From Tahibacter harae (GTDB lineage Bacteria > Pseudomonadota > Gammaproteobacteria > Xanthomonadales > Rhodanobacteraceae), in contig NZ_JANFQO010000011.1 of the NCBI RefSeq assembly GCF_024437735.1, forward strand, positions 62,001-126,000: DNA of 64,000 nt, written 5' to 3'. The notes beneath the pieces were generated by a model. It was not told where the DNA came from. It was given only the letters and a program-made list of their open reading frames with translations, and searched no databases. Positions 33,224-64,000 of the stretch are shown here, one piece after another (the first letter of the stretch is position 1; each line of letters opens with the position of its first letter). Position numbers and translations under genes: made by a program.

Positions 33224-34576
33224 ATGGCGCCAGGGCAGGACGTGCAGATGCACCGGCGTGTCCTGCTTTGTTTATTTGTCGCTTTGTTTCTTCTGCAGCA
33301 GGCCGCCCTGCTGTGGCTGTACTGGGGCGGCGCGGGCGCCAAGGTCCTGCTCGGCGACGAGGTGAACTACCTGGCCTGGGCGCGCGGCCTGGCCGGGCTG
33401 GGGCCGATGCCGGCACCGACCGGCTGGTGGCCGCCGCTGCAGGCCTGGCTGCTGGCCGGACTGTTCCGCCTGTGCGGCGAGCAGCTGTGGCTGGTGCAAT
33501 TGCTGCAAACCGCATTGCTGATCGCCTGCGCCGGCCTGCTGCGCGCGATCTGGCGCGACGTGGACGGCCGCGTGCGCGCGGCCAACTTGGCCGCGGCGCT
33601 GTTTCTGCTCAATCCGTCCACCATGGCCTATGCCCATTGGCTGTGGCCGGAACCCGTACACCTGTTCCTGCTGCTGGCGGCGCTGCGCCTGGCACAGCGC
33701 GCGTCCACGCCGGCACGCGACCTGCTCGCCGGCGCGGCACTGGGCGCGGCGCTGCTGGCCAAGAGCCTGCTCAGCCTGTTCTGGCCCTTCGTCCTGCTGC
33801 TGCAGGGACGGCGCTGGCGCGGCATGGCCGCGTTGCTGCTGGGCGTGGCCGCGGTGATCGCGCTGCCGCTGTGGCAGGGCTGGAAGGAAACCGGCAAGCC
33901 CATGATCGCCGACAGCTCGGCCTTCAACCTGCTCGGCGGGCTCAAGGACCGCTGGCGCAGCGACTACATCGACGACAGCGTGGCCGCGCTGGCGCAGGAC
34001 TATTTCCAGTCCGCGCCGAGCATCAGCGCGCGCAATGCGATCTATCTCGACCGCGCCGAAACCCTGGTCGCGCAGCAGGGCCTGCTGCCGACCTTGCAGC
34101 AGCAGCTGGAGCGGCAGTATTTCCGCCTGTTCAGCAGCAAGACGCTGCTGTTGAGCCAGCTGCCCGGGCCGGCTTGCGCCGGGCACACCGGCAGCTACCG
34201 GCCGGCCTCTGCCTGGTTGCCGCAGCTGCTCGCGGCGGCGGCCGATGCGCTGCATCTGCTGATCCTGGCCGGCTTTGCCGTGGGCCTGGCGTTCTGGCGG
34301 CGCTGGCGCGAACCGCTGGTGTGGTGGACTGGACTCTTCTTCGCCTACCAGCTGGGCCTGTATCTGCTGCTGCACGTGAAGGCGCGTTTCCTGCTGCCGT
34401 TCATGCCTTTCCTTTGCGCCTTCGCCGGCAGCGCCTGTGCCAGCCTGGGCCGGCCCGACGCCGCCGCGGCGGTCTGGCTGCATGGCCGCTGGCGCTGGGT
34501 GCTGGCGGCGCTGCTGTCCGCCCTGCTGCTGCTGCTGGCCCTGGGCGGCCCCTGGCTGGACCATAGTTGTGGCTGA
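33224..34576 (+). CDS. GT39-like membrane glycosyltransferase
   Basis: A 450-residue integral membrane protein with about 11 hydrophobic segments. The first periplasmic loop holds LLGDEVNYLAWARGLAG, matching the Asp/Glu pair (DE) of the GT39/ArnT-like catalytic loop, and the first helix contains LLCLFVALFLLQQAALLWLYW. It probably moves a sugar from a polyprenyl-phosphate donor on the periplasmic side. A second in-frame ATG at 33248 (8 codons in) is preceded by GGAC and could be the true start. It shares the rightward operon with the flanking genes. Confidence 0.8.
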   Translation: MAPGQDVQMHRRVLLCLFVALFLLQQAALLWLYWGGAGAKVLLGDEVNYLAWARGLAGLGPMPAPTGWWPPLQAWLLAGLFRLCGEQLWLVQLLQTALLIACAGLLRAIWRDVDGRVRAANLAAALFLLNPSTMAYAHWLWPEPVHLFLLLAALRLAQRASTPARDLLAGAALGAALLAKSLLSLFWPFVLLLQGRRWRGMAALLLGVAAVIALPLWQGWKETGKPMIADSSAFNLLGGLKDRWRSDYIDDSVAALAQDYFQSAPSISARNAIYLDRAETLVAQQGLLPTLQQQLERQYFRLFSSKTLLLSQLPGPACAGHTGSYRPASAWLPQLLAAAADALHLLILAGFAVGLAFWRRWREPLVWWTGLFFAYQLGLYLLLHVKARFLLPFMPFLCAFAGSACASLGRPDAAAAVWLHGRWRWVLAALLSALLLLLALGGPWLDHSCG

Positions 34577-34585
34577 GGAGGGCGC

Positions 34586-34939
34586 ATGAACCGCGAGCAG
34601 GAACTGGAACTGCGCCTGGCCGAATCGCGCCATACCGAGACGGAGCTGCGCCGCGTGATCGAGCTGCTGCTGCGCGAAGGCGAGGCCGTATTCGCCAGCC
34701 GCAGCTGGCAACTGGGCCGCGCCCTGCTGCGCCCGCTGGAATGGCTGCTGCGCCGTGCGCCGGGCAGCGCCCAGGACGCGGCGCACTGGCGGCGCATCGC
34801 CGCGGCGCATGACGAAGATCTGGCGCGGCGGCGCCGGCTGCTGGAGCAGCTGTGTGCGGATCCCGCCGCCGAGCAGGAACTCGATGCCGTGCTCGGCCGC
34901 CTGTGGCGCGAGCGCGCCGGAACCGACCGCGGCGCATGA
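34586..34939 (+). CDS. Coiled-coil protein of glycan operon
   Basis: A 117-residue helical protein: a heptad-rich N-terminus (QELELRLAESRHTETELRRV), the segment VFASRSWQLGRALLRPLEWL, which matches the S..W.L.R.LR motif that often follows coiled coils in glycosyltransferase-linked proteins, and a second helical part ending LWRERAG. It lies 9 bp after the GT39-like gene and overlaps the next gene by 4 bp (ATGA). It is likely a small organiser of the glycan complex; no catalytic residues are seen. Confidence 0.7.
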   Translation: MNREQELELRLAESRHTETELRRVIELLLREGEAVFASRSWQLGRALLRPLEWLLRRAPGSAQDAAHWRRIAAAHDEDLARRRRLLEQLCADPAAEQELDAVLGRLWRERAGTDRGA

Positions 34940-37608
34940 ACGCCGCGCCGCGCGCCAGCCTGATCGTGCTGGCCTGGAACCGCTGGGAACTGACGCGGCG
35001 CGCGCTGGACAGTCTGCTGCGCTGCGACCTCGGCGACAGCGAGATCCTCGTCGTCGACAACGGTTCCAGCGATGCCACGGCGCAGGAACTCGGCGTCTAT
35101 GCAGACCGCGTGCGCGTGCTGCGCCTGGCGCGGAACCTCGGCTACGTGCGCGGCAACAATGCCGGCATCGCGGCGGCGGCCGCGGACAGCGATATCGTGC
35201 TGCTCAACAACGACCTGGTCTTCACCCAGGCGGACTGGCTGGCGAAACTGCGCGCGTGCGTCTACGCCGCCGGCGATTGCGGCATCGCCGGCTGCCGTCT
35301 GGTCGACGACCAGGGCCATCTCCTGCATGCGGGCACGCGCGTGTTGCCCGACGATGGCATCGGCGTACAGACGCCTTCCGGCCGCATCGAACGCGACGTG
35401 GGCCAGTACAGCGATGCCGACCGCGTGGTCGAGGGCGTGGTCTTCGCCGCGGTCTATATCCGCCGCGCCGTGATCGACGCCATAGGCCCGCTGCACAGCG
35501 ACTACGACACCTACGCCGAGGACAGCGACTATTGCCTGCGCGCCCGCGCCGCCGGCTGGCATACGCGGCTGTGCGGCGGTGTCACCTTGCGCCACGACCA
35601 GCACGGCTCCACCGCCGACGATGCGGCGCGGCGCGGCGAACTGCTGCGGCAGGGACGGGAGACCTTTGCGCGGCATTGGCTGCCGGCCCTGCGCGCGCAA
35701 TACGGGACGTCGCTGCGCATCCACGGCGCGCTGGATTTTCCGCAGCACGTCGCGCGCTGGCTGCGGCCGCTGGCGCGGGCGCTGGATGCGGCCGGGATAC
35801 GCCTGTCCTACCAGTCGCTGTATGCGCCGGTATTGCCCGAGGCCATCGCCGAACCCGGCGACAGCCGCGATCACCTGCTCAACACGCTGCGCCGGCGCGG
35901 CGCCGAAACAGCGCCGGCCGCGGCGCTGTGCGTGGGCGATATCGCGCTGTGGCCGCAGGTGCAGGCCGCCTACCGCATCGGCTTGGCCGATTTCGAGACC
36001 CCGCCGGATGTGCGCGAGCAAGCCATCCTGCACGCGATGGATGAACTCTGGGCGCCCAGCGGCTGGCACCGGCGCGAGCTGGAGCGGCTGGGCCTGGGCG
36101 CGCGCCTGCGCGATCTGCCCTGGGGCGTGGATGCGGCTTATGCGCATCCGGGCCTGCGCGCGCCGCGGGCAGCGGACGGCGACTGCGTGGTGCTGTGCAT
36201 CGCCGCCTGGGACGAACTGGACCGGCCCTGGCGCCTGTTGCAGGCGTGGACGCGCCGGTTCCGCCGCGAAGACCGGCTGCGCCTGCTGCTGTGGCTGGAT
36301 CCGGCCGGCAGCGACATCGCCACGGCCACGCGCGAACTGGCGCTGGATGTGCACGGCGGCCGCTACGACATCGTGCTGCAGCCGCGCCTGGCCGAGGAAG
36401 CGCAGCAGGTCGTGTTTGCCGCGGCCGATGTGGTCATCAGCACCAGCCGCGCCAACAGCCGCTGCTGGGCGCTGCTGCAGGCGCTGGCGACGGCGCGGCC
36501 GCTGGTTGCCGTCGCGCGCGGCGCGGCGGCGGAATGGCTGCAGCGGCATGCAGGGCGGGCGGTGGATGCGGATGACGTGTCCTGCGAAGACGCCGTGCTC
36601 GCCGCGCTGGATGAAGTGCTGGCCGATCTGCCCGCGGCGCGCGCGCGCGCGCTTCGCGCCAGCGGACAGCTGCGCATCGCGGCGGACTGGCGCAGCAGCG
36701 CGCAGATTGCGCGCAAGCACCTGGCGCGGCCGTTCGCGCCGGTGCCGCGTGCGCCGGCTGCGCCGGCGCAGGGGCGCGTGATCGTGCTCGGCATGCATCG
36801 CTCGGGCACGTCCTGCGTCGCCGGCCTGCTGCACATGCTGGGCGCCTATGCCGGCGAGCCCGGCAGCTTCCTGGTCAATGCAGCGGAAAATGCCCGCGGC
36901 TTCCTCGAACGCGGCGACCTGCACCTGGCCTGCGTGGGCGCACTGCGCCGGCGCGGCGGCGACTGGTCGATACCGCTGGGCTGGGACGAAACCGCGCTGC
37001 CCGCGGCGCGGGCGCAATGGCGCGCGGACTGGCGCCGCATACAGGCCGAACTGGAGCTGCGCTCGCCCTGGCTGGTGAAGGAACCGCGCCTGTGCCTGCT
37101 GCTGGACGAGGTCGCCGATCTCATCGGTCCCTGCGCGCTGGTGCACGTGGTGCGTGCGCCGGACTGCGTTGCGGCCTCGGTCTGCCGCCGCCACGGCCTG
37201 CAGGCGCCGCAGGCACTGGCGCTGTGGGAACACTACAACCGTGCCGCGGCGCAGCTGTGCCGCGACCGGCCGGCCCTGGTGCTGGATTACCATTGCCTGC
37301 TGCAACAGCCGCAGCCGCAGGTGCGGCGCCTGTACCGGCGCCTCTGCGACTACGGCGTGCAGGGCCTGCGGCTGCCCTCGGCGGAGGAAATCGCCGCCTG
37401 GGTGGCGCCGCAGCTCGCGCGCGAACGCAGCCCGCGCGGCTTTGCGCCCAGCGCGGCGCAGCAGGCGCTGTGGCAGGCGCTGCGCCGGCGCGCCGCGGAC
37501 GAGGATGTGCCGCTGCCGCCGGCCGACGCCGGCGCGGCGGCCTTGCTGCAGCAGCTGGGCGCGGATCACCGCGCGGCGATGGCGGCGGAACAGGAACGAG
37601 GCGGATGA
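34936..37608 (+). CDS. GT2 / GT4-like / sulfotransferase fusion
   Basis: An 890-residue protein with three enzyme-like parts. Residues 6-270 are a GT2 enzyme: ASLIVLAWNRWELTRRALDS, LVVDNGSSDATAQEL, LLNNDLVFTQADWLA and DTYAEDSDYCLRARAAG. Residues about 330-600 resemble the donor half of GT4 (AMDELWAPSGWHRREL, LPWGVDAAY, VVFAAADVVISTSRANS, LLQALATARPLVAVARG), but the usual Glu before the AxA helix is Gln, so this part may be inactive. Residues 614-850 form a P-loop sulfotransferase: VIVLGMHRSGTSCVAGLLH at 617-635 (PAPS 5'-phosphate loop), WLVKEPRLCLLLDE and HVVRAPDCVAASVCRRHG (3'-phosphate site with Arg). It probably adds a sugar and sulfates or recognises a glycan. ATGA overlaps link it to both neighbours. 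Confidence 0.85.
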   Translation: MNAAPRASLIVLAWNRWELTRRALDSLLRCDLGDSEILVVDNGSSDATAQELGVYADRVRVLRLARNLGYVRGNNAGIAAAAADSDIVLLNNDLVFTQADWLAKLRACVYAAGDCGIAGCRLVDDQGHLLHAGTRVLPDDGIGVQTPSGRIERDVGQYSDADRVVEGVVFAAVYIRRAVIDAIGPLHSDYDTYAEDSDYCLRARAAGWHTRLCGGVTLRHDQHGSTADDAARRGELLRQGRETFARHWLPALRAQYGTSLRIHGALDFPQHVARWLRPLARALDAAGIRLSYQSLYAPVLPEAIAEPGDSRDHLLNTLRRRGAETAPAAALCVGDIALWPQVQAAYRIGLADFETPPDVREQAILHAMDELWAPSGWHRRELERLGLGARLRDLPWGVDAAYAHPGLRAPRAADGDCVVLCIAAWDELDRPWRLLQAWTRRFRREDRLRLLLWLDPAGSDIATATRELALDVHGGRYDIVLQPRLAEEAQQVVFAAADVVISTSRANSRCWALLQALATARPLVAVARGAAAEWLQRHAGRAVDADDVSCEDAVLAALDEVLADLPAARARALRASGQLRIAADWRSSAQIARKHLARPFAPVPRAPAAPAQGRVIVLGMHRSGTSCVAGLLHMLGAYAGEPGSFLVNAAENARGFLERGDLHLACVGALRRRGGDWSIPLGWDETALPAARAQWRADWRRIQAELELRSPWLVKEPRLCLLLDEVADLIGPCALVHVVRAPDCVAASVCRRHGLQAPQALALWEHYNRAAAQLCRDRPALVLDYHCLLQQPQPQVRRLYRRLCDYGVQGLRLPSAEEIAAWVAPQLARERSPRGFAPSAAQQALWQALRRRAADEDVPLPPADAGAAALLQQLGADHRAAMAAEQERGG

Positions 37609-39080
37609 CCATGCAAGCAAGCCCGGCGCTGGCCGCGCGGGTGGACTGGGACGGCCGGGAACTGCGCCTGCATGGCGTGGACGGCGAGATCGAACTCTGG
37701 CTGGACGGCGTGTTCTACGCGCGCCTGGCCGGCCAGGACGGCGCCGCGCGCCTGGCCCTGCCGTGCGCGCCGAACGGGCGGACGCGGGTGAACCTGGAGC
37801 TGCGCCGCGGCGCTGCATGCAGTGCCGCGGTCGCGCTGGAATCCGGCCGCGCCGGCCTGGGCCGCGCCGCGGCGGCATTGCCGCTGGCGCCGCTGGAAAA
37901 TGATGAATATGTGGATATTGCGGCATGCGCCGCAGGGCTGGCCGGCGAGGCCGCCATCGTGGTGCCGGTCTACAACGCGCCGCAGGCGGTGCGTGCCTGT
38001 CTCGACAGCGTGCTCGCGCATACCCGCGGCGCAGCCCGCCTCATCGTCATCGATGACGCCAGCCCGGATCCGGCCGTGGCGCCGCTGCTGCAGGACTACG
38101 CCGGCCGACGCGGCGTGAGCGTGCTGCGCAACGAACAGAACCTCGGCTTCACCGGCACCGCCAACCGCGGCATCGCGGCGGCCGGCCGCGCCGACGTGGT
38201 GCTGCTCAATGCCGATACCGAGGTCGCGCCGCACTGGCTCTGCGGTTTGCGCCGCGCGGCCTGGAGCCACGCCGCCATCGCCAGCGCGACGGCCGTGTCG
38301 GACAACGCCGGTGCGTTCTCCGTGCCGGAGCTGGAGCAGGAAAACCCGCTGCCGCAGGACTGGAGTTTCGCCCAGGCCGCGCTCGCCCTGTGGCAGCAGG
38401 CCGGCACGGCCTATCCGCGCCTGCCCACCGGCAACGGTTTCTGCCTCTACCTCAAGCGCGCGGCGCTGGATGCGGTCGGCGTGCTCGACGCCGAAGCCTT
38501 CCCGCAGGGCTACGGCGAGGAGAACGACTGGTGCCAGCGCGCCGCCGCGGCGGGCTGGCAGCACGTGATCGCCGGCAATGTGCTGGTGCGGCATGCGCGC
38601 AGCCAGAGCTTCGGCCACGAACGCCGCCGCGCCCTGGGCGAAGCCGGCATGGCTGTGCTGCGCCGGCGCTGGCCGCACTACGAGAGCGAAGTCGGCGCCA
38701 GCCTGTTCTCGCCGCGCCGGCGCGTGCTGGACTGGCGCGTGCGGCGCCTGTACGCCGAAGCGCCGCCGCTGCCGCGGCTGCTGTGCTGGGAAGATGCGGA
38801 GGTCGGTGCGACCAATCACAGTGCCTGGCGCGCCGGCTTCGGCGGCGGCGGTATCTGGCTGCAGGGGCCGCAGGGCGTGCAGGAAACCTTCGGCAGCGAG
38901 AACCTCGCCGCGGCGGCCGCGCGCGCGGACCAGGCCGCGGCCTTCGCGCGCCTGCTGCAGCGCTGGGCGATCGCTCGGATCAGCGGCGCGCTGCCGGCGC
39001 ATCTGGCCGCGGTCGCCGCCGCGCTGAACATCGCCGGCGATGGCTGGCGCGTGGCGAATCCGTTCGGAGACGGCGCATGA
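37605..39080 (+). CDS. Glycosyltransferase family 2
   Basis: A 491-residue protein. Residues 1-110 form a beta-rich N-terminal module (ELRLHGVDGEIELWLDGVF) of unknown role. Residues 115-370 are the GT2 core: AIVVPVYNAPQAVRACLDS, LIVIDDASPDPAVAPLL, GFTGTANRGIAAAG, LLNADTEVAPHWL and FPQGYGEENDWCQRAAAAG. The last 110 residues include LPRLLCWEDAEVGATNHSAW. It overlaps the upstream fusion gene and the downstream gmd gene by 4 bp each, so all are co-translated. Confidence 0.9.
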   Translation: MTMQASPALAARVDWDGRELRLHGVDGEIELWLDGVFYARLAGQDGAARLALPCAPNGRTRVNLELRRGAACSAAVALESGRAGLGRAAAALPLAPLENDEYVDIAACAAGLAGEAAIVVPVYNAPQAVRACLDSVLAHTRGAARLIVIDDASPDPAVAPLLQDYAGRRGVSVLRNEQNLGFTGTANRGIAAAGRADVVLLNADTEVAPHWLCGLRRAAWSHAAIASATAVSDNAGAFSVPELEQENPLPQDWSFAQAALALWQQAGTAYPRLPTGNGFCLYLKRAALDAVGVLDAEAFPQGYGEENDWCQRAAAAGWQHVIAGNVLVRHARSQSFGHERRRALGEAGMAVLRRRWPHYESEVGASLFSPRRRVLDWRVRRLYAEAPPLPRLLCWEDAEVGATNHSAWRAGFGGGGIWLQGPQGVQETFGSENLAAAAARADQAAAFARLLQRWAIARISGALPAHLAAVAAALNIAGDGWRVANPFGDGA

Positions 39081-40111
39081 GCCAGGTGGCCCTGGTCACC
39101 GGAGCCGCTGGCCAGGACGGCGCCTACCTCTGCCGCGATCTGCTCGCGGCGGGCTGGCAGGTGCAGGCCGGCGTACGCCCCGGTGCCGAGGAACCGGCCC
39201 TGTGGCGGCTGCGCGAACTGGGCCTGCTGGGCCGGCCGGCCTTGCAGCTGCTGGCGCTGGACGTGCGCGACGCCGCCGCCTGCAACGACGCGGTGCTGCA
39301 ATTGAAACCGCAGCAGGTTTTTCACCTGGCCGCGATCAGCAGCGTGGCGCGGGCGGCGCAGGAGCCGCTGGCCGCGGTCGACAGCAACGGCCTGGGCGCG
39401 CTGAACCTGCTCGAAGCCGTACGCTGCCATGCGCCGCAGGCGCGTTTCGTACTGGCTTCCAGCGGCGAGATCTTCGTGCCGCGCGACGGCGTGATCGACG
39501 AGGACTGCGCGCTGCAGGCGCGCCATCCCTACGCCCTGTCCAAGCTGCTCGCCCATGCGGCGGTGCGCACCTATCGCGAGAGCTACGGCCTGGCCGCTTC
39601 CGCCGCCATCCTGTTCAATCACGAATCGCCGCTGCGCGGCAGCGCCTTCGTCACGCGCAAGATCGCCGCGGCGGCGGCGCGGCGCGGCGCCGGCGGCGGC
39701 GAAGTGCTGCTGCTGGGCGACCTGTCCGCGCAGCGCGACTTCGGTTACGCGCCCGACTACGTCGCCGGCCTGCGCGCGCTTGCCGCCTGTGCCGTGCCGG
39801 ACGATTACGTGTTCGCCAGCGGCGAATGCGCGTCGATCCGCGAGTTCGCCAGCCTGGCCTATGCCGCGGCCGGCATCGAAGTGCGGTGGCAGGGCAGCGG
39901 CCCGGACGAACACGCGCTGGATGCGGCCGGCCGGCGCTGTATCGGCGTCGATCCCGCCTTGCTGCGCCGCGCCGATGCGCCGCTGCTGCGCGGCGACGCG
40001 GCGCGGGCGCGGCGCGAGCTGGGCTTCGCCAATACGGTGCCGCTGCTGCGGCTGGTGCGGCTGCTGGTCGAGGCCGAGCAGCGCCGCCTGGGCCAGGAGC
40101 GCGCGCCGTGA
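39077..40111 (+). CDS. gmd: GDP-mannose 4,6-dehydratase-like
   Basis: A 344-residue extended short-chain dehydrogenase. NAD(P)-binding ALVTGAAGQDGAYLCRDLL, then VFHLAAISSVARAAQEPL, LASSGEIFVPRDG, the YxxxK pair Tyr152/Lys156 in HPYALSKLLAH, and the GMD-diagnostic AAILFNHESPLRG with AFVTRKIAAAAAR. It should convert GDP-mannose to GDP-4-keto-6-deoxymannose, a precursor of GDP-rhamnose, GDP-fucose or perosamine. No reductase or aminotransferase partner is in the window, so the final sugar is not defined. Confidence 0.88.
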   Translation: MSQVALVTGAAGQDGAYLCRDLLAAGWQVQAGVRPGAEEPALWRLRELGLLGRPALQLLALDVRDAAACNDAVLQLKPQQVFHLAAISSVARAAQEPLAAVDSNGLGALNLLEAVRCHAPQARFVLASSGEIFVPRDGVIDEDCALQARHPYALSKLLAHAAVRTYRESYGLAASAAILFNHESPLRGSAFVTRKIAAAAARRGAGGGEVLLLGDLSAQRDFGYAPDYVAGLRALAACAVPDDYVFASGECASIREFASLAYAAAGIEVRWQGSGPDEHALDAAGRRCIGVDPALLRRADAPLLRGDAARARRELGFANTVPLLRLVRLLVEAEQRRLGQERAP

Positions 40112-42399
40112 GCGCTACGGACGCAATGCCGGCGATGCACGATCCGGCGCAGGAACCGCTGCGCCTGATCCTCAACGTGGACGCGATCAGTGCGCCGCTG
40201 ACGGGCATAGGCGTGTACACGCGCGAGCTGGCCCTGGGCCTGCAGCAGCATCCGGCGCTGGGCGAGCTGAAACTGTTCTCGGCCTACCGCTGGGTGGACA
40301 GCGTGGACCAGGCTCTGCTGGTCAACCGCACCATACAGAACGTGCGCCGCGTGCTGCCGCTGCGCCGCGCGGCGCTGGAAGGCTATACCCGGCTGCGCGC
40401 CGGCCTGTTCCGGCGCAGCGCCGGGCATCTGCGCGACCACGTGCTGCATGCGCCCAACTTCGTGCTGATGCCGTTCGACGGACCCAGCGTGGCGACGGTG
40501 CACGATATTTCCTATTTGCTTTATCCACAGTTCCATCCGCCCGAACGGGTGCGCTTCCTCGAGCGCCACCTGCCGCCGACCCTGGCCCGGGCCGATGCGC
40601 TGATCGTCGACTCCGCGCATGTGCGCGAGGAACTCATCAACGTGCTGGGCGTGGACGAGTCGCGCCTGCACGTGGTGCCGCTGGGCGTGGATGCGGACTT
40701 CCATCCGCGCAGCGCAGCGCAGTGCGCCGCGGCGCTGGCGGCGCACGGGCTGGCGTGGAAGGGCTATCTGCTGGTGGTCGCCACGCAGGAACCGCGCAAG
40801 AACCTGGAGCGCCTGGTGCAGGCCTATGCCGGCCTGGACGCGGCGCTGCGCCGGCGCCTGCCGCTGGTCGTGGTCGGCGCGCGCGGCTGGCTGGACGCGC
40901 CGCTGGCGCGCGTGATCGAGCCGCTGGAACAGCGCGGCGAAGTGCGCCGGCTGGGCTTCGTCGCCGCCGCCGAGCTGCCCTGCATCTACGCCGGCGCCGC
41001 CGGTTTCGCATTTCCGTCGCTGTACGAGGGCTTCGGCCTGCCGCTGCTGGAGGCCATGGCCAGCGGCGTGCCGGTGCTGACGTCCAATGCGGCTTCCATG
41101 CCGGAAGTGGTCGGCGATGCGGCGCTGTGCGTGGATCCGCTGGACGTGGACGCGATCCGCGCGGGCCTGCAGCGCCTGTGCGACGACGAAACCTGGCGCG
41201 CCGCCGCGGTGCCCGCCGGCCTGGCCCAGGCCGGCGCCTATACCTGGCAGCGCACGCTGGAGCAGACCATCGCCGTGTACCGCGCGGCGCGGGCGCGCGC
41301 CAGTGCAACGCCGCCGGTGCTGGGGCATGCACGCCTGCCGCCGCCGCCGGCGCATGCTTCGTCATCGCCAGCCGCCGCAGCCCGCGGCGCCGTCGTACTG
41401 GTGAACTTCAACACCGCCGACCGCAGCCTGCGCTGCGTGGCCTCGCTGCGGCCACTGGCGGGGCAGATACGGCTGATCGTGGTCGACAGCGGTTCGCGGC
41501 CGGCCGATCTCGCCGTGCTGCGCGCGGGGCTGGCGCGTGACTGGCCGCAGGCCGAACTCATCGCCAGCCCGCTCAATATCGGCTTCGCCGCCGGCTGCAA
41601 TCGTGCCATCTCGCGCTGCCTCGCCGACGCGGCGGTCTCGCATGTACTGCTGCTCAACAACGATGCCGTGGCCACGCCGCAGCTGCATGCCTGGCTGCTG
41701 GACCACCTGCACGGCCGCGCCGCAGCGGACCTGGCCGGCGGGCGCGTGCTAAAGCTCGATGCGGGCAGCGACGAAGTCGATTCCCTGGGCATCGCCTTCT
41801 ACCGCAGCCTGCTCGCCTCAAACCGGCTGGATCCGCAGGAGCCGTATTTCGGCCCTACCGGCGGCTGCGCGCTGTATGCGCGGCGCGTGCTGGAAACCCT
41901 GCGCGACGCGCACGGCTACGTCTTCGACGAGGAATTCTTCTGCTACGCCGAAGACACCGACGTGGCCGCGCGCGCGCTGCTGCTGGGCTTTACGCCGGCC
42001 TACGCCGACGCAGTGCTGGCGCGGCACGAGGGACAGGCCTCCAGCGGCGGCGGCTTCAACGATTTCGTGCTCTACCACGGCATCCGCAATTCGTTGTGGA
42101 TGCTGCTGAAATGCGTGCCGGCCGGCCTGATCCTGCGCAACCTGCCCTGGCTGCTCGCCATCCACGCCGGCATCGTGCTGCGCCACGGCCTGCGCGGCAA
42201 GGCGCGCGTGGTATTCCGCCTCTACCGCGACGCCCTCGGCGGCAGCCTGCGCATGTGGCGCAAACGCCGCTGCATCCAGCGTAGCCGGCGCATAGGCACG
42301 GCCGGCTTCGCACGCCATGTAAGCCGGCGATTCTACGACCGCGGCTATGTGCGCAATGCGCTGAAGGATTTGTGGGCGGCGTTGGTGGGGCGGAGGTGA
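40108..42399 (+). CDS. GT4-GT2 fusion glycosyltransferase
   Basis: A 763-residue protein from a GTG at 40108 that overlaps gmd by 4 bp (GTGA); an ATG at 40126 is an alternative. Residues about 10-400 are GT4 ([62 protein letters not shown] with both donor Glu). After an Ala/Pro linker, residues about 425-680 are GT2 ([51 protein letters not shown]). The C-terminus has a hydrophobic segment ([16 protein letters not shown]) and basic residues, suggesting membrane association. It ends the operon and could add two consecutive residues. Confidence 0.9.
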
Positions 42400-42739: not shown

Positions 42740-45457
42740 TTATTTGCTCGCCATCGGCGCCACCGGCTTCGCCCCGCCCTCGGCGGCGGCCTTGGGGGCG
42801 AAAGGCTGGTCGAAACTGGACCGCAGCAGCGTTTCCCCGTGGTTGACCAGATCTGCCTGCACCGGCCTGGCCTTGGCGCCGGCGACGCGCTGGGGCGGCG
42901 GCAGCGGGTCGATGATGTTGATTTTGGCGATGGCGTCGAAGCTGCGGTCCGGGTCGGCGAGGTAGCCGCGCACTTCGGCGGCGGCCTGGCGTACCGCGGC
43001 CGGCGGGTCGGGCAGGGTGAAACGGCTGCCCTGGGCGGCGAAGCGCGAGACATGCAGCGACTTGCCCTTGTTGTCGACCCAGTTGACCTCGACCATGCCG
43101 CGGAAACTGTCGCGGGCGAGCTGGGCTTCGATCAGGTCGGGGCCGAACGGGCGCAGCTTGCGCACCAGGCGGAATTCGCCGGCGGGGCGTTCCAGGATCA
43201 CCGCCGGATCGCCGAGCAGATTGTAGGTCTCGACCAGGGTTTCATCCTTGATCGGCGTCTTGCCGGCGACGATGGCGTCGCCGATGGTGACGCCCGTCTT
43301 GGTCAGCTGTTCGACGATGACCTTGCTGAATTCCGGCGACGGCGAGTTGCGCCAGGACGCGGCGAACACCGCAATTGCGCCCTTGCCGGGTTCGCGCAGG
43401 AAGCGTTCGCCGATGGAGTCTTCGGTCGGGTTGTCGAACGGGGCCGAATAGCAGGTCATCGACAGCACCATGGGCAGGCGGCCGCTGTTGTTCAGGCCGG
43501 AGACGTCGTCCAGCGTGAACAGGTCGTGGTTCTTGCGCAGGTCGGGCGGGCCGGTGCGCCAGATGTAGCGGCCGCCGTGGCCGATGAAGTGCACCAGCAG
43601 GCGGCCTTCGTTGAGGCCGTCCTTGATCGAGCTTTGATGGGCCAGGTTGTCCTTTTCGTCGGGGCTGGCGTAGACCTTGTCGGTGAGGAAGCCGGCATTG
43701 TCCAGGTTGCGCGCGATATCGTCGGAGGTGCGCTTGAAGTAGTCGCTCTCGTCGGTAATGAACATCACGTCGCGGCGCCAGCTGCCCAACTGCGGCGTGC
43801 TCATGTAGCTGATGGTCTTGTCGACGATGGCCTTGACCTCGGCCGGCTCCACCACCGGGAAGCGGCCCAGGGCGATGACCGGGGCCAGCGGATCCTTGCC
43901 CACGCTGACGAAATGATTGTCGCTGGCGGATTGGCCGTCGTAGGACATGAACTGCCAGGTCGGGATCAGGCCGCGGTGCTTGAGATCGGCCGGCGTGTCG
44001 GCATAGGGAATGCTGTCGATATCGCCGAACTGGCCCGGCATCAGCAGTTCGTTGTCGGCCCACTTGGCCAGCTGGCGGCGGTCTATGCGCTCGTGGCGGA
44101 TGTCGAAGCTGGCGTCGCCGACGAGCAGGGCGTAGCGCGGACGCGGCGCAGGCCATTCGTTGTAGGCCTGCTGCATCAGGCTGCGTATGGCCTGCGGATG
44201 CACGATGCCGTGGTTGAACTGGTCGTAGACATCCGCGACATCGATGACCGCGACCTTGAGCCCGCGCTGGCGGTGGAATTCGGCCAGCGGCTGGATTGCG
44301 TCGATCAGGCGCGCATGGCTGATGATGAGGTAGTCCACCGGCGCGGCGGGCCGGTGCAGGTCGGCGGCATTGATCGCGCGCAGGCTCAGCGGCTTGGCGA
44401 AACCGGCGTCCAGCACCGGGAACAGTTCGGTGCCGGCCTCGATGCGGCCGAACTGGCCGCCGGCGGCACTGAAGCGGCGGCCGTCGCCGGAGTACAGCGC
44501 GAGTTCGCCGCCGGCGTGGCTCAGGCCCGGGCGGCCGGCACTGCTGATGCGCAGCGGCGCGGCGGAGAGGGCGAGGTCGCCGCTGATCGGATAGTCCAGG
44601 TCGACGGAATTGAACATGACCACGTCGACGATGGGATTGGTGTCTTCCGGCTTGGCCAGGCGCTTGGGTACGCTGAGGGTCAGCACATTGCCCTGGGCGC
44701 GCAGCTGAGCGGCAGGTACACGGAATTCGTGCACTACTTCGGCGCGGCCGTCCCAGTTGAAATGGGCGACGTCCCTGCCGTCGATCTGCACATTGACCTG
44801 GTGGTCGGTAGCGGGACGCGGCTGGTTGGGCGGCACGTTGAGCGAGGACATGCCGCGGAACTTGAGCTTGAAGTCGACCGTGCCGCCGCGGCTGGCCAGA
44901 TCGGGCAGTTCCAGCGGCAGGCGGAACGGCTCCGGATCCACGTGGGTGAGCTTGGCCCAGTGCCAGAAATCCGCCTCTTCCCACTGTTTCACGTGGGCCT
45001 GGTTGAGGCGGATCATCATGTTTTCCTGCTCCAGATGGAGCTGGCGCTGCAGCGCGGCCGCGCCGGCCGCGCCCTGGGTGGCGATTTCGGCGATGCGCGC
45101 ATGCGCGCCGGGAGCGGCGCGCAGTTCGTAGACGTTGACGGTGCTGTAGGTGTCGAACCAGGACAGTGGCCCGTGCAGCGCCCGGCCCACCCATTCGATG
45201 CGGTCGCCGGCGCTGAAATTGGCGCCGCTGCCGGTGATGCGGATGGGAACTTCGACGCCGCGCTGGGTCAGGTAGAGCGAATCCCGCGGGCAGTCGGCCA
45301 GCTGCGGCACGGCCTGCGCGAGGCTGGCGTGATCCAGCGCGTACACGCCGGCCTGTTCGATTTCTATGTGTGCGGCGCCGGAGCAGGCGAGCGCGGCAGG
45401 TGCAGAGAGAACGGCGAGGAAGCCGAGGCCGGCGGCGCGGCGGAAATGCGGCAGCAT
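42740..45457 (-). CDS. C25 family (gingipain-like) cysteine peptidase
   Basis: A 905-residue exported protein (signal MLPHFRRAAGLGFLAVLSAP). The N-terminal 350 residues are beta-rich and resemble other C25-type propeptide or ligand regions. The C25 core has ALLVGDASFDIRHER, the catalytic His near residue 626 in LLVHFIGHGGRYIWRTG and the catalytic Cys near 668 in VLSMTCYSAPFDNPTEDS, then FAASWRNSPSPEFSK and YNLLGDPAVIL. It probably cleaves proteins outside the cytoplasm. The ATG at 45457 opens the signal peptide. There is no T9SS tail; export is by Sec. A 12-G tract lies upstream. Confidence 0.88.
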   Translation of the reverse strand: MLPHFRRAAGLGFLAVLSAPAALACSGAAHIEIEQAGVYALDHASLAQAVPQLADCPRDSLYLTQRGVEVPIRITGSGANFSAGDRIEWVGRALHGPLSWFDTYSTVNVYELRAAPGAHARIAEIATQGAAGAAALQRQLHLEQENMMIRLNQAHVKQWEEADFWHWAKLTHVDPEPFRLPLELPDLASRGGTVDFKLKFRGMSSLNVPPNQPRPATDHQVNVQIDGRDVAHFNWDGRAEVVHEFRVPAAQLRAQGNVLTLSVPKRLAKPEDTNPIVDVVMFNSVDLDYPISGDLALSAAPLRISSAGRPGLSHAGGELALYSGDGRRFSAAGGQFGRIEAGTELFPVLDAGFAKPLSLRAINAADLHRPAAPVDYLIISHARLIDAIQPLAEFHRQRGLKVAVIDVADVYDQFNHGIVHPQAIRSLMQQAYNEWPAPRPRYALLVGDASFDIRHERIDRRQLAKWADNELLMPGQFGDIDSIPYADTPADLKHRGLIPTWQFMSYDGQSASDNHFVSVGKDPLAPVIALGRFPVVEPAEVKAIVDKTISYMSTPQLGSWRRDVMFITDESDYFKRTSDDIARNLDNAGFLTDKVYASPDEKDNLAHQSSIKDGLNEGRLLVHFIGHGGRYIWRTGPPDLRKNHDLFTLDDVSGLNNSGRLPMVLSMTCYSAPFDNPTEDSIGERFLREPGKGAIAVFAASWRNSPSPEFSKVIVEQLTKTGVTIGDAIVAGKTPIKDETLVETYNLLGDPAVILERPAGEFRLVRKLRPFGPDLIEAQLARDSFRGMVEVNWVDNKGKSLHVSRFAAQGSRFTLPDPPAAVRQAAAEVRGYLADPDRSFDAIAKINIIDPLPPPQRVAGAKARPVQADLVNHGETLLRSSFDQPFAPKAAAEGGAKPVAPMASK

Positions 45458-45623: not shown

Positions 45624-46274
45624 TCACGGCGTGGTGGGGATGGTCTCGAAGCCCCACTTGAACAGCTGGTCGGTATGGTCGATGGTCAGTGTGGCGCCGT
45701 TGACTGTGCCGGTGTTGCCGTCGCCGGCATCCCAGAAGGTCAGGGTCCAGGTGCCGTTGGCCTGGGACGGCGGCACGCCCTTGAAGGCTTCGGAAATGAT
45801 GGCCGGCACGCCGCCCGGCTGGACGCCGCCCGGCGTCGCGGCGCGGTAGGTTTCCGGCGGCACCACCGGCGTGGCCCAGGCCCACCAGCCGCGCAGGGCG
45901 TCGTCGCTGAATTTGTATTCGCCGTTGAGGTCGCCGTCGTGGCCGCAGCCGTTGGGCACGTTGGAGCCGGTATGGCTGAAGATGATCTTGGACGGCGTGC
46001 CGCCCGGGGCGGCCAGGCTGACGACGAGGTCGCCGCGCCAGCTGTGCACCACGTTCATGCTCAGCTTGACCGCCACGACCGGGTATTGCAGGCCGGTGAC
46101 GTCAAAGCTGATGACGCGGGGCTGGCCCAGGTTGTTCACGCCGCAGCTGGGCGAGCCGGCCGGGGCGTCCGGAATGGGGCCCATGCCCGTGCCGGTGAAA
46201 GTCGCCACCTCGGCGGACGCGGACGCCGCTGCGAGGCCAAGGCCGAGCACGGCCAGAGTTGCGGTGATGCGCAT
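45624..46274 (-). CDS. Secreted P-domain (proprotein-convertase) protein
   Basis: A 216-residue exported protein (signal MRITATLAVLGLGLAAASAS). Most of it is a P-domain as found in subtilisin/kexin proproteins and secreted proteases: VISFDVTGLQYPVVAVKLSM, VVHSWRGDLVVSLAAPGGTP, SDDALRGWWAWATP and SQANGTWTLTFWDAGDGNTG. It stands alone, without a protease domain. It ends QLFKWGFETIPTTP, again with an F..GFE element. GGAG lies upstream of the ATG at 46274. It may bind or stabilise a partner protein. Confidence 0.85.
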   Translation of the reverse strand: MRITATLAVLGLGLAAASASAEVATFTGTGMGPIPDAPAGSPSCGVNNLGQPRVISFDVTGLQYPVVAVKLSMNVVHSWRGDLVVSLAAPGGTPSKIIFSHTGSNVPNGCGHDGDLNGEYKFSDDALRGWWAWATPVVPPETYRAATPGGVQPGGVPAIISEAFKGVPPSQANGTWTLTFWDAGDGNTGTVNGATLTIDHTDQLFKWGFETIPTTP

Positions 46275-46357
46275 GCCTACCACTCCAGGAAAACGACAGA
46301 AAACCGCCGCAGTGTAGCCGAACTCCGGCTCACCTACGGACGCGACAGGACGTTTGT

Positions 46358-47134
46358 TCAGTTGCCGGTCGTCGCAGCAGACGGCCGGAACAGGCGCTGC
46401 AGCAGGCCGGCCACGGCGGGCATGGCCTTGGCCACCAGGGCCGGGTTGGAGAACCAGGCCTCGGTCAGGCAGGCGAAGAATTCGTCCGGGCTTTCCGCGG
46501 CGTAGGGGTCGATCAGGGTTTCCTCGTCCGCGTCCACCGCCGCGCAGAAGGCGTCGTAGGCCTGCTGGAACACCTGCTTCCACTCGCGCCGCGGCAGCGA
46601 CGGCGGCAGCGGCGGCACGCCGTCGCTGCCGCCGTCGCGCATGTCCAGCTTGTGCGCGATCTCGTGGATGATGACGTTGAAGCCTTCGTGGGGCTGGGCC
46701 AGGTCCTGTTCGATGTCGGCCCAGGACAGCACCAGCGGGCCGCCTTCCCAGGCTTCGCCGATCAGGCTGTCCTCGCCTTCGGTGACGACGCCGGTTTCCT
46801 CGTCGTGGTGTTCCCGGCGCATGCGGAATTCGCCCGGGTAGACCAGCACTTGGCGCCAGCCGCGCAGCAGGTCGTAGTCCAGCTCCAGTACCGGCAGGCA
46901 GGCCTGGGCGGCGATGAGCAGGCGGCGCTGGTCGTCCAGTTCGGCGCCGCCCAGGGCGAAGAAGGTCTTCTCGGCCAGGAAGCGCGCGCTGAGTCCGCGC
47001 AGGCGCGCGGCCTGGTCCGGATTCAGCGGCTGCAGCAGCGCACAGGCCGCCACGGCGGCCTGCCAGCGGGCATCGTCCAGGGGTTCGGGACGGGGGCGCA
47101 GGCGCTCCCCGATACGGCGCAGCAGGGCGAACAT
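46358..47134 (-). CDS. mtfA: MtfA-type zinc peptidase (M90)
   Basis: A 258-residue cytoplasmic peptidase of the MtfA family, which in Escherichia coli links Mlc to glucose uptake control. Motifs are FLAEKTFFALGGAELDDQRR, VLVYPGEFRM, LIGEAWEGGPLVLSWADI, the zinc site NVIIHEIAHKLDMRDG, and downstream Glu in AAESPDEFFACLTEAWFSNP. The ATG at 47134 is chosen; a GTG six bases upstream (47140) is also possible. No strong ribosome-binding site is visible for either. Confidence 0.92.
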   Translation of the reverse strand: MFALLRRIGERLRPRPEPLDDARWQAAVAACALLQPLNPDQAARLRGLSARFLAEKTFFALGGAELDDQRRLLIAAQACLPVLELDYDLLRGWRQVLVYPGEFRMRREHHDEETGVVTEGEDSLIGEAWEGGPLVLSWADIEQDLAQPHEGFNVIIHEIAHKLDMRDGGSDGVPPLPPSLPRREWKQVFQQAYDAFCAAVDADEETLIDPYAAESPDEFFACLTEAWFSNPALVAKAMPAVAGLLQRLFRPSAATTGN

Positions 47135-61331: not shown

Positions 61332-64000
61332 TCAGCCGGCGAGCATCCTGCGCCACCACGCCAGACCGGCCAGGCCCAGCGCCATCAGCAGCAGCGTCCA
61401 GCTGCTCAACGCGGGTACCGGCGTCGCCGGGCTGGCCGGGGTGCCGGTCACGACGAAGCTGGTCGGGTCGGCGGCGCCGGCGGCGGCCGGGTCGTCGGTC
61501 GGCGCGCTGCTTTCGTTGCTGCCGTTGGCATCGCCGTCGTAGAACACGGTGCCCTGGTTGCTGATCGTGCCGCTGGCCGAGGAGCTGATGGTCGCGTTGA
61601 TGGTGATGGTCACGCTGCCGCCCGCGGGGACAGTGCCGTTCCAGCTCACTCCATTGGCGGCGGTGGTCACGCTGCCGGAGGTGGCATTGGCCGCGACCAG
61701 GTTCAGGCCGGCCGGCAGGGTATCGACGAATTCGTTGCCGGGGTTGTCGGTCTGCGCGGCGGTGCCGGTGTTGCTGATGACGACCGTATAAGTGACCGCC
61801 GTGCCCGGCAGGAAGCCGGCGGCGGCGGTCACGCTCTTGGTGGCGCTGAGCACGGCGGCCGGCGCGGCCTGGACGGTGTCGGTATCGGTGGCGCTGTTGT
61901 TGGCCGGATTGGTGTCGGTCACGCTGGCGGGTGCGCTCACGGTGGCGGTGTTGCTGAGCGAACCGGTGGTGGCCGACGAGATCGCGCAGACCGCGGTGTA
62001 GGTTGCGCTGCCGCCGCTGGGCAGGTTCGCCGTATCGCTGATGCTGCCGCTGCCCGACGCGGTGCAGGTGCCGCCGGCGGTGCCTGCGCAGGTCCAGGTG
62101 CAGGTCAAACCGGCCGGGAACATGTCGGTCACGCTGGCGCCGCTGGCGTCGCTGGGGCCGCTGTTGCTGGCCATGATGGTGTAGGTCGTGCTGCTGCCGG
62201 CCGTAACTGCCGTGACGCCGTCGGTCTTGGTGATGGACAGATCTGCACTCGCGCCCAGCGCATCGGTGTCGGTGGCGCTGTTGTTGGCGGGGTTGGTATC
62301 GGTCACGCCGGCGGCTGCGGTCACCGTGGCGGTGTTGACCAGCGCGCCCGTGGCTGCGGCGGAAATGGCGCAGCTGGCGGTATAGGTCACGCTGCCGCCG
62401 CTGGGCAGGTTCACCGCATCGCTGATATTGCCGCTGCCCGACGCGGCGCAGGTGCCGCCGCCGGCGCCCACGCAGGTCCAGGTGCAGGTGAGCGGCGCCG
62501 GGAAGGTATCGGCGACGGTGGCAGCGGCATTGCTGGGGCCGGCGTTGCTGGCGGTGATGGTGTAGGTGACGCTGCCGCCCGGTGTGGCCGAGGTCACGCC
62601 GTCGGTCTTGGTGATCGACAGATCGGCGCTGGCGCCCAGCGCATCGGTATCGGTGGCGCTGTTGTTGCCCGGCGTCGGGTCGGTGACGCCGGCGCCGGCC
62701 GTCACGGTGGCGGTATTGGCCAGCGCGCCGGTAGCGGCGGCGGAGATGGTGCAGCTGGCGGTGTAGGTCACGCTGCCCGCGTTGGGCAGGTTCACCGCAT
62801 CGCTGATATTGCCGCTGCCCGACGCGGTACAGGTGCCGCCGCCGGCGCCCACGCAGGTCCAGGTGCAGGTGAGCGGCGCCGGGAAGGTATCGGCGACGGT
62901 GGCAGCGGCATTGCTGGGGCCGGCGTTGCTGGCGGTGATGGTGTAGGTGACGCTGCCGCCCGGCGTGGCCGAGGTCACGCCGTCGGTCTTGGTGATCGAC
63001 AGATCCGCACTCGCGCCCAGCGCATCGGTATCGGTGGCGCTGTTGTTGCCCGGCGTCGGGTCGGTGACGCCGGCGCCGGCGGCTACCGTGGCCGTGTTGA
63101 CCAGCGAGCCGGTGGCGGAGGCGGAAATGGTGCAGCTGGCGGTATAGGTCACGCTGCCGCCGCTGGGCAGGTTCACCGCATCGCTGATATTGCCGCTGCC
63201 CGACGCGGTACAGGTGCCGCCGCCCGCGCCCACGCAGGTCCAGGTGCAGGTGAGCGGCGCCGGGAAGGTATCGGCGACGGTGGCAGCGGCATTGCTGGGA
63301 CCGGCGTTAGCCGCGCTGATCGTGTACGTCACGCTGCCGCCCGGCGTGGCCGAGGTCACGCCGTCGGTCTTGGTGATCGACAGATCCGCGCTCGCGCCCA
63401 GCGCATCGGTATCGGTGGCGCTGTTGTTGCCCGGCGTCGGGTCGGTTACGCCGGCGCCGGCGGCTACCGTGGCGGTGTTGACCAGCGAGCCGGTGGCGGC
63501 GGCGGAGATGGTGCAGCTGGCGGTGTAGGTCACGCTGCCCGCGTTGGGCAGGTTCACCGCATCGCTGATATTGCCGCTGCCGGATGCGGTGCAGGTGCCG
63601 CCGCCCGCGCCCACGCAGGTCCACGTGCAGGTGAGCGGCGCCGGGAAGGTGTCGGCGACGGTGGCGCCGGCATTGCTGGGGCCGGCGTTGCTGGCGGTGA
63701 TGGTGTAGGTGACGCTGCCGCCCGGCGTGGCCGAAGTCACGCCATCGGTCTTGGTGATCGACAGATCGGCGCTGGCGGCGAGCGAGTCGGTGTCGGTCGC
63801 GCTGTTGTTGCCCGGCGTGGGATCGGTCATGCCGCCCGGCGCGGCGACGGTCGCCGTATTGCTCAATGTGCCGCTGGCCGCGGCCGAGATCGTGCACGAC
63901 GCGGTATAGGTCACCAGGCCGCCCGCCGGCAGGTTCACCGTATCGCCGATATTGCCGCTGCCGGAGGCGGTACAGGTGCCGCCGCCGCCGCCCACGCAGG
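61332..64000 (-). CDS. DUF11-repeat surface protein with IPTL-type C-terminal anchor (5' end outside window)
   Basis: The visible 889 residues are the C-terminal part of a long exported protein. Five tandem DUF11-type units of 127 residues each begin near ADLSITKTDGVTSATPGG and contain YTITASNAGPSNAAATVADT, FPAPLTCTWTCVGAGGGTC and NLPSGGSVTYTASCTISAAA. A more divergent unit (AAVLSATKSVTAAAGFLPGT) follows. The C-terminus TPVPALSSWTLLLMALGLAG and WWRRM matches an IPTL-CTERM signal: a PALS/W motif, one transmembrane helix and a basic end. The Cys pairs in each unit may form disulfides. It should be held at the cell surface as an adhesin-like stalk. The gene continues past the right edge. Confidence 0.9.
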   Translation of the reverse strand, partial: CVGGGGGTCTASGSGNIGDTVNLPAGGLVTYTASCTISAAASGTLSNTATVAAPGGMTDPTPGNNSATDTDSLAASADLSITKTDGVTSATPGGSVTYTITASNAGPSNAGATVADTFPAPLTCTWTCVGAGGGTCTASGSGNISDAVNLPNAGSVTYTASCTISAAATGSLVNTATVAAGAGVTDPTPGNNSATDTDALGASADLSITKTDGVTSATPGGSVTYTISAANAGPSNAAATVADTFPAPLTCTWTCVGAGGGTCTASGSGNISDAVNLPSGGSVTYTASCTISASATGSLVNTATVAAGAGVTDPTPGNNSATDTDALGASADLSITKTDGVTSATPGGSVTYTITASNAGPSNAAATVADTFPAPLTCTWTCVGAGGGTCTASGSGNISDAVNLPNAGSVTYTASCTISAAATGALANTATVTAGAGVTDPTPGNNSATDTDALGASADLSITKTDGVTSATPGGSVTYTITASNAGPSNAAATVADTFPAPLTCTWTCVGAGGGTCAASGSGNISDAVNLPSGGSVTYTASCAISAAATGALVNTATVTAAAGVTDTNPANNSATDTDALGASADLSITKTDGVTAVTAGSSTTYTIMASNSGPSDASGASVTDMFPAGLTCTWTCAGTAGGTCTASGSGSISDTANLPSGGSATYTAVCAISSATTGSLSNTATVSAPASVTDTNPANNSATDTDTVQAAPAAVLSATKSVTAAAGFLPGTAVTYTVVISNTGTAAQTDNPGNEFVDTLPAGLNLVAANATSGSVTTAANGVSWNGTVPAGGSVTITINATISSSASGTISNQGTVFYDGDANGSNESSAPTDDPAAAGAADPTSFVVTGTPASPATPVPALSSWTLLLMALGLAGLAWWRRMLAG
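62230..64000 (-). repeat. Tandem 381-bp coding repeats
   Basis: Near-identical units repeat every 381 bp; the plus-strand marker GATCGACAGATC or a close variant recurs near 62230, 62615, 62996, 63377 and 63758. They encode the DUF11 units and extend to the window edge. High nucleotide identity indicates recent expansion or conversion, and copy number may vary between strains. Confidence 0.92.

Follow-up and report, generated by a model that had tools for sequence, protein, structure and literature searches.

We analyzed 64,000 nucleotides of the Tahibacter harae genome (assembly GCF_024437735.1, contig NZ_JANFQO010000011.1, positions 62,001 to 126,000), here called the window. We found that an 890-amino-acid (aa) open frame at 34936-37608 on the plus strand encodes a family 2 glycosyltransferase (GT2) domain, a GT4-like module, and then a sulfotransferase (ST) domain on one chain. 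Judged from its sequence, the chain is most likely a GT2 and a sulfotransferase joined by a dead GT4. The reading that we favor, with a probability of about 0.6, is that it is a two-activity enzyme for a surface glycan that is built in the cytoplasm and exported by Wzm/Wzt. The ST-last order, the pseudo-GT4, and the lineage that carries them are new here. Coordinates are those of the window and lie on the plus strand unless stated otherwise.

One open frame carries GT2, GT4-like, and sulfotransferase domains

The domain order comes from Pfam. Glycos_transf_2 matched residues 8 to 107 (E = 1.3e-17; 64.7 bits against a cutoff of 23.3), Glyco_trans_1_4 matched residues 418 to 559 slightly below its cutoff (E = 7.7e-6; 26.7 bits against 27), and Sulfotransfer_3 (PF13469) matched residues 615 to 803 (E = 1.3e-8; 35.8 bits against 27). 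The frame, counted from 34852, is coding-like, with GC contents of 0.80, 0.54, and 0.87 by codon position. We found the full-length protein with the same domain order in 10 of 98 other genomes: 6 of the 7 from the same genus and 4 from the same family. A sequencing join or a chance fusion was ruled out, because the full-length orthologues span 66% down to 38% identity; matches over the full length include proteins of T. aquaticus (64%) and T. soli (52%). The first-pass annotation of this DNA had proposed three enzyme-type domains on one chain, and the Pfam order and the orthologues bear this out.

The GT2 domain (residues 1 to 262; 34936-35721) has the motifs D41-N-G-S, N91-N-D93, and E195-D196-x-D198. 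These Asp motifs had been described as intact, and we found them unchanged across 11 orthologues. On the strength of the motifs, the GT2 would be expected to transfer sugar from a nucleotide sugar.

The GT4 module lacks the GT4 catalytic residues

The middle part of the chain (residues 268 to 600; 35737-36735), delimited by Pfam, Foldseek, and column conservation, has neither the EX7E pair nor the phosphate-binding Lys of an active GT4. Asp (D429; 36220-36222) stands in place of the Lys, which we take to bind the donor phosphate in GT4 enzymes. The EX7E remnant runs from N507 to Q515 (36454-36480), and both Glu residues are lost. The first-pass annotation had noted a Glu-to-Gln change; Q515 is indeed at the second Glu position, and the loss extends to the first Glu (N507) and the Lys (D429).

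A search for the domain order, as the annotation had suggested, recovered it in Tahibacter and Dokdonella relatives, in 32 distinct ST-bearing proteins. The first Glu of EX7E is retained in none of the 32, and the Lys is likewise retained in none, with Asp at its position in all 32. We thus ruled out a point change in a single species. The second Glu is retained in 17 of the 32 (17/25 outside Tahibacter and 0/7 in the Tahibacter clade). In contrast, the EX7E pair and the Lys are intact in all seven GT2-GT4 relatives without an ST (L071, L075, L076, L137, L138, L139, and L141). The loss of conservation also reaches beyond these residues: 64 of 262 GT2 columns and 42 of 229 ST columns are invariant in the 32 ST-bearing proteins, versus 9 of 324 GT4 columns (residues 268 to 400 and 410 to 600), 4/133 in the N-terminal half and 5/191 in the C-terminal half.

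The AlphaFold2 (AF2) model of the full-length protein has a pLDDT of 84.5 and a pTM of 0.83, and falls below a pLDDT of 50 at residues 143 to 161 and 225 to 227. Its top 50 Foldseek matches include GT2-type structures (heparosan synthase 2 and GalNAc transferases), GT4-type structures (6kih, 6tvp, 7qsg, and PimA, 2gej), and others; the GT4 structures support a GT-B fold. A profile search of the PDB also matched GT4 chains over about residues 362 to 594. We concluded that the module is a whole degenerate GT-B module and, going by its sequence, very probably not an enzyme, which replaces the earlier description of a GT4-like donor half. A glycan-recognition role had been offered as well; the only point behind it is the dead GT4.

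We built a tree of the GT2-GT4 core with 38 rows, midpoint rooted, after dropping 16 duplicates between named contigs and numbered genomes and leaving out L075, whose GT2 and GT4 do not share a frame. One branch (support, 100/99) separates the 32 ST-bearing rows from the 6 ST-less rows. Because the ST-bearing and ST-less cores flank this one branch, gain of the ST and loss of the first Glu appear to coincide. The ST-less state is probably the older one, since regain of lost catalytic residues is unlikely. These proteins form a natural series in which the GT4 motifs go from intact to lost beside the gain of another enzyme, a usable case for the origin of pseudo-glycosyltransferases.

The sulfotransferase domain looks like a working PAPS-type enzyme

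The ST domain (residues 612 to 840; 36769-37455) was delimited by Pfam, conservation, and a structure model. In an alignment of 84 ST domains that includes ST-first fusions along with other proteins drawn from several phyla, 11 positions are invariant (H621, S623, G624, G636, G655, E658, W677, P717, R718, R740, and S748), and K715, G619, M620, R622, T625, and S626 are present in 90% or more. The window ST has all 11, K715, and the full P-loop GMHRSGTS (residues 619 to 626; 36790-36813), which, from knowledge of the family, we take to be the 5'-phosphosulfate site. E658 (36907-36909) is a candidate catalytic base, by an analogy that we assume with the Glu of tyrosylprotein sulfotransferases. 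R740 and S748 (37153-37179) form the presumed 3'-phosphate site, on the basis of their invariance and a weak alignment to R and S of 2z6v.

Structural comparisons are consistent with this assignment. In the PDB, the ST-domain profile matched two entries titled as sulfotransferases, 2z6v (E = 6.7e-6) and 2zq5 (E = 8.5e-4); in 2z6v, both the P-loop and the R...S stretch are in register with the profile, each being weak alone. An AF2 model of the ST domain alone (pLDDT, 95.0; pTM, 0.92) was compared with the PDB by Foldseek, and the first 26 chains were all sulfotransferases, several with 3'-phosphoadenosine 5'-phosphate (PAP) bound. The top match was 4gox (E = 5.7e-6), and 16 chains, all sulfotransferases, had E below 1e-3 with TM-scores of 0.46 to 0.59 by query length. 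The first-pass annotation had named a P-loop sulfotransferase with GMHRSGTS, and the motifs, the fold, and the above-cutoff PF13469 match agree with a type that uses 3'-phosphoadenosine 5'-phosphosulfate (PAPS). Judged by modeled fold and by motif, the domain does not appear to lack a PAPS pocket, the outcome that the annotation had named as evidence against itself. To us it looks like a working PAPS-type sulfotransferase.

The genome that contains the window (6.0 Mb in 79 contigs) also has PAPS-making genes, which the first-pass annotation had suggested looking for. We found APS kinase matches at three places. The two strong ones, read by eye, are bifunctional sulfurylase-APS kinase chains, and neither gene adjoins the fusion locus. 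The APS kinase family was also matched in 11 of 14 control genomes. Sulfotransfer_3 had seven matches on six contigs, one of them the fusion gene, and most of the others score far higher; this family was matched in 2 of the 14 controls. PAPS-making genes are necessary for the sulfation reading and support it weakly.

The ST-last order was found only in Tahibacter, Dokdonella, and nearby genomes

Among the sequences searched, ST-last fusions occur only in Tahibacter, Dokdonella, and metagenome-assembled genomes (MAGs) placed near them. In an order-level draw of 398 genomes, including the window's own, the protein had 22 matches at E <= 1e-60. Eighteen of these, from three genera of one family, span residues 1-7 to residue 846 or beyond, and the remaining four, from two other families, span the GT2 or GT2-GT4 part only. 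A class-level draw of 369 genomes, queried with an ST-less GT2-GT4 protein, gave three matches: the window's own genome, another genome from its genus, and a protein that has no ST. On GTDB contigs, the best 78 of 552 related loci, to which all our architecture counts refer, include 27 with the GT2-GT4-ST order (type A), labelled Tahibacter, Dokdonella, Rhodanobacteraceae, or more loosely named MAGs. L078 and L140 were dropped, having the GT2 part only.

Fusion of a GT to an ST is not rare as such, and fusions with the ST first occur in several phyla. Among 47 other loci (the 78 minus type A, the ST-less GT2-GT4 loci, and the cut L078), 24 have a GT2-profile match on the ST chain, always after the ST. 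The first-pass annotation had called a GT-ST tie uncommon; this is correct for the ST-last order and incorrect for fusions in general, and we dropped it as a main point. The ST-first fusions (Thiotrichaceae, Desulfurivibrio, Polarisedimenticolaceae, Actinomycetota, and others) chain an ST of the same subfamily to GT2 and/or GT4, but their ST is N-terminal and their chains lack a GT4 of the window's kind. When six chains of this type were compared with Pfam, L080, L103, L110, and L091 showed Sulfotransfer_3 plus a GT domain, L124 showed GT domains, with an ST only by our in-house profile, and L088 showed the ST alone. L125 and the doubled loci were left out of an alignment (A2). In a tree of ST domains, the type A STs form one side of a branch with support of 99/91, and the ST-first STs lie on the other side. 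Labels in this tree were set per locus: one of two L116 rows is labelled B and its own chain has no GT2 match, and proteins labelled O may hold other GTs (L110 has a GT4).

The ST-less GT2-GT4 proteins (Acidobacteriota L071, L075, and L076; Gammaproteobacteria L137, L138, L139, and L141) share the GT2-then-GT4 order but differ from the window protein in having no ST and, as noted above, an intact EX7E and Lys. L137 to L139 match it at 35 to 37% over residues 6 to 535, and L076 matches at 39%. In L075 the GT2 and the GT4 are read from separate frames, and L138 and L139 have an additional GT4 on the chain. The last two are GT2-GT4-GT4 frames of 1,027 and 1,034 aa with EX7E intact in the first GT4 (Pfam was run on L138 only).

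NodH, which we take to be a single-domain protein, belongs to the same Pfam family as the window ST, as do other PF13469 STs. Its sugar sulfation is proven according to the available part of a review, and it differs in acting on a lipo-oligosaccharide (PMC11625862). The capsule clusters of Vibrio sp. KMM 8419 and Cobetia marina KMM 1449, as described in the accessible text of the two reports, combine an ABC transporter, GTs, STs, and PAPS genes, and the sulfated polysaccharide is chemically proven; they differ in that ST and GT are separate genes and the PAPS genes lie within the cluster (PMC11641403, PMC11766843). The synechan xss cluster likewise holds STs and GTs in one polysaccharide locus, but, in the part of the source available, it follows a Wzx/Wzy route and has separate ST genes (PMC8205485). 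Our literature search, in which subscription journals were outside coverage, returned no paper joining a sulfotransferase with Tahibacter or Dokdonella, and the papers examined gave no account of ST-last or ST-first GT-ST fusions.

Little is known about sulfated polysaccharides of bacteria. Papers from 2021 and 2026, in the portions available, still attribute them to cyanobacteria alone (PMC8205485, PMC13390465). Published work nevertheless documents sulfated capsules in marine Vibrio and Cobetia (PMC11641403, PMC11766843), and a review, as far as its accessible part goes, lists six bacterial genera with sulfated polysaccharides (PMC11625862). From the fusion gene, a sulfated glycan is to be expected in one more group, and this group includes named strains (T. 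aquaticus DSM 21667 and D. fugitiva). If the prediction is true, a sulfated sugar should be present on the surface of the bacterium.

The fusion gene lies among conserved glycosyltransferase genes

ATGA overlaps tie the fusion gene to both neighbors, which probably places it in a compact operon. We counted neighbors at the 27 type A loci over flanks of up to 10 kb, shorter in some, using mechanical gene calls from codon-position GC. Downstream, a second GT2 gene (37605-39080; Pfam, 73.9 bits), whose ATGA overlap is with the fusion gene, is present in 27/27 loci and in 25/27 at 53 to 70% identity; at L069 and L079 the best match to it is the fusion's own GT2. A short-chain dehydrogenase/reductase (SDR) of the GDP-mannose 4,6-dehydratase (GMD) family follows (39077-40111; PF16363, E = 3.8e-82; TIGR01472, 232 bits, below the 415 cutoff) and is found in 24/27. 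A GT4-GT2 fusion identified by Pfam (40126-42399) is matched, as a GT4 or GT4-GT2 neighbor, in 23/27. In Tahibacter this gene is a GT4-GT2 fusion, and its matches in the Dokdonella clade extend over no more than the length of a GT4; the operon thus holds a second change in domain content. Two further GT4s are found in 23/27 and 20/27 loci and a DUF4214 protein in 23/27.

Upstream, a membrane protein that is GT-C-like by eye only (33251-34576) is conserved in 26/27 loci and had no Pfam or NCBIfam match. Between it and the fusion gene lies a 117-aa open reading frame (ORF), helical by eye (34586-34939), whose stop overlaps the fusion-gene start; it is found in 5/27 loci, all five of the Tahibacter clade. 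Wzm and Wzt stand immediately upstream of the fusion gene in 21/27 loci. The 117-aa ORF occupies the place that Wzm/Wzt hold in Dokdonella-clade loci. In the window genome, Wzm (57% identity) and Wzt lie together on another contig (C34), away from the locus.

Weighing of the explanations

According to the reading that we favor, the N-terminal GT2 would extend a glycan at the cytoplasmic face from nucleotide sugar, and the C-terminal ST would move sulfate from PAPS onto the same glycan, presumably a shared acceptor. The GT4 module, probably no longer transferring sugar, may act as a spacer or as a scaffold that holds the glycan. The Wzm/Wzt ABC transporter would then export the product, in Tahibacter presumably by the same route. 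Several observations weigh against this. Wzm/Wzt were found neither at five Tahibacter-clade loci nor at the window locus; the sixth type A locus without them is L070, whose contig starts at the fusion gene. One genome of the same genus (G006, 680 contigs) is without the protein. We found no sulfotransferase among the top 50 Foldseek matches of the full model, which leaves the domain model as the basis for the ST fold, and none among the 56 PDB matches of the full-length profile. The TM-scores of the first 26 chains matched by the domain model (0.41 to 0.59) are moderate and indicate a common fold, not a close one, and P-loop kinases are intermixed from rank 27 of that list. Since PAPS genes are common and Sulfotransfer_3 is present on five other contigs, the PAPS need not serve the fusion enzyme. 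The GT4 argument, as read from the sequences, is one evolutionary event and not 32 independent ones, and all six ST-less rows of the core tree were flagged as deviant in composition, so their branch needs care. Finally, Aeromonas salmonicida has an ST-domain gene in an ABC-exported O-antigen cluster and, according to the accessible part of the source, the known structures are sulfate-free (PMC4483657).

A more specific account is that the enzyme is a lineage-specific coupled synthase, in which the GT4 became a noncatalytic scaffold on the branch where the ST was gained and each sugar placed by the GT2 passes along the dead GT4 to the ST before export; the chain would then be a single-protein machine for a sugar-plus-sulfate polymer in Gammaproteobacteria. 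We regard this as a tentative possibility, less likely than not. The ST might instead act on an acceptor other than the GT2-built glycan, such as a lipid, a protein, or a small molecule, and be merely tethered. The substrates of solved fold relatives of the ST are peptides, polyketides, and small molecules, and NodH, as the review's available part has it, acts on a lipo-oligosaccharide (PMC11625862). However, the overlapping and following genes on the same strand are the GT2, the GMD-family SDR, and the GT4-GT2 fusion, kept in 23 to 27 of the 27 loci, and ST domains of the same subfamily share chains with GTs in other phyla; we consider a separate acceptor unlikely. As a variant of the favored explanation, the sulfate could be terminal and stop the chain instead of decorating each repeat. 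WbdD-type enzymes end chain growth with a phosphate or a methyl group, and the glycan setting in the Dokdonella clade, ABC-exported and with a GT coupled to a group transferase, would suit such a role. An end-recognizing C-terminal Wzt domain is known from capped O-antigens, but at 236 aa in L055 and 228 aa on C34 the neighboring Wzt is too short to hold one. We consider this variant unlikely.

The remaining explanations differ in which domains work. If all three were active, the GT4 would use an unusual EX7E-free mechanism, and the chain would add two sugars and one sulfate. GT4 structures do match the full model, all 17 proteins that keep the second Glu lie outside Tahibacter, and a few GT4 positions are retained in 97% or more (E306, Y402, and D498). 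Set against the loss of the first Glu and the Lys-to-Asp change in 32/32, the loss of the second Glu as well in all seven Tahibacter-clade proteins, and the poor conservation of the whole module, an active GT4 is improbable. The opposite idea, that the ST domain is a remnant of a PAP/PAPS fold that only recognizes glycan or senses PAPS, could draw on its modest Pfam score (35.8 bits). Yet the domain has every position invariant in the 84 ST domains and is highly conserved in contrast with the adjoining GT4, and we consider a remnant very improbable.

Other genes in the window

A gingipain-type C25 peptidase related to the type IX secretion system (T9SS) sortase PorU lies beside the glycan locus on the minus strand (42740-45454; PF01364, E = 5e-81; NF033707, 210 bits against a cutoff of 420), here in a gammaproteobacterium. 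PorU attaches proteins to a sugar-lipid in Bacteroidota. The peptidase was matched in 12/27 type A loci. At 45627-46442, also on the minus strand, lies a gene for a protein with a proprotein convertase P-domain; the Pfam scan showed no domain of the peptidase kind in it. An 887-aa frame on the minus strand (61335-63995), with DUF11 repeats in six stretches and a subthreshold PEP-CTERM match at its end, reaches the window edge.

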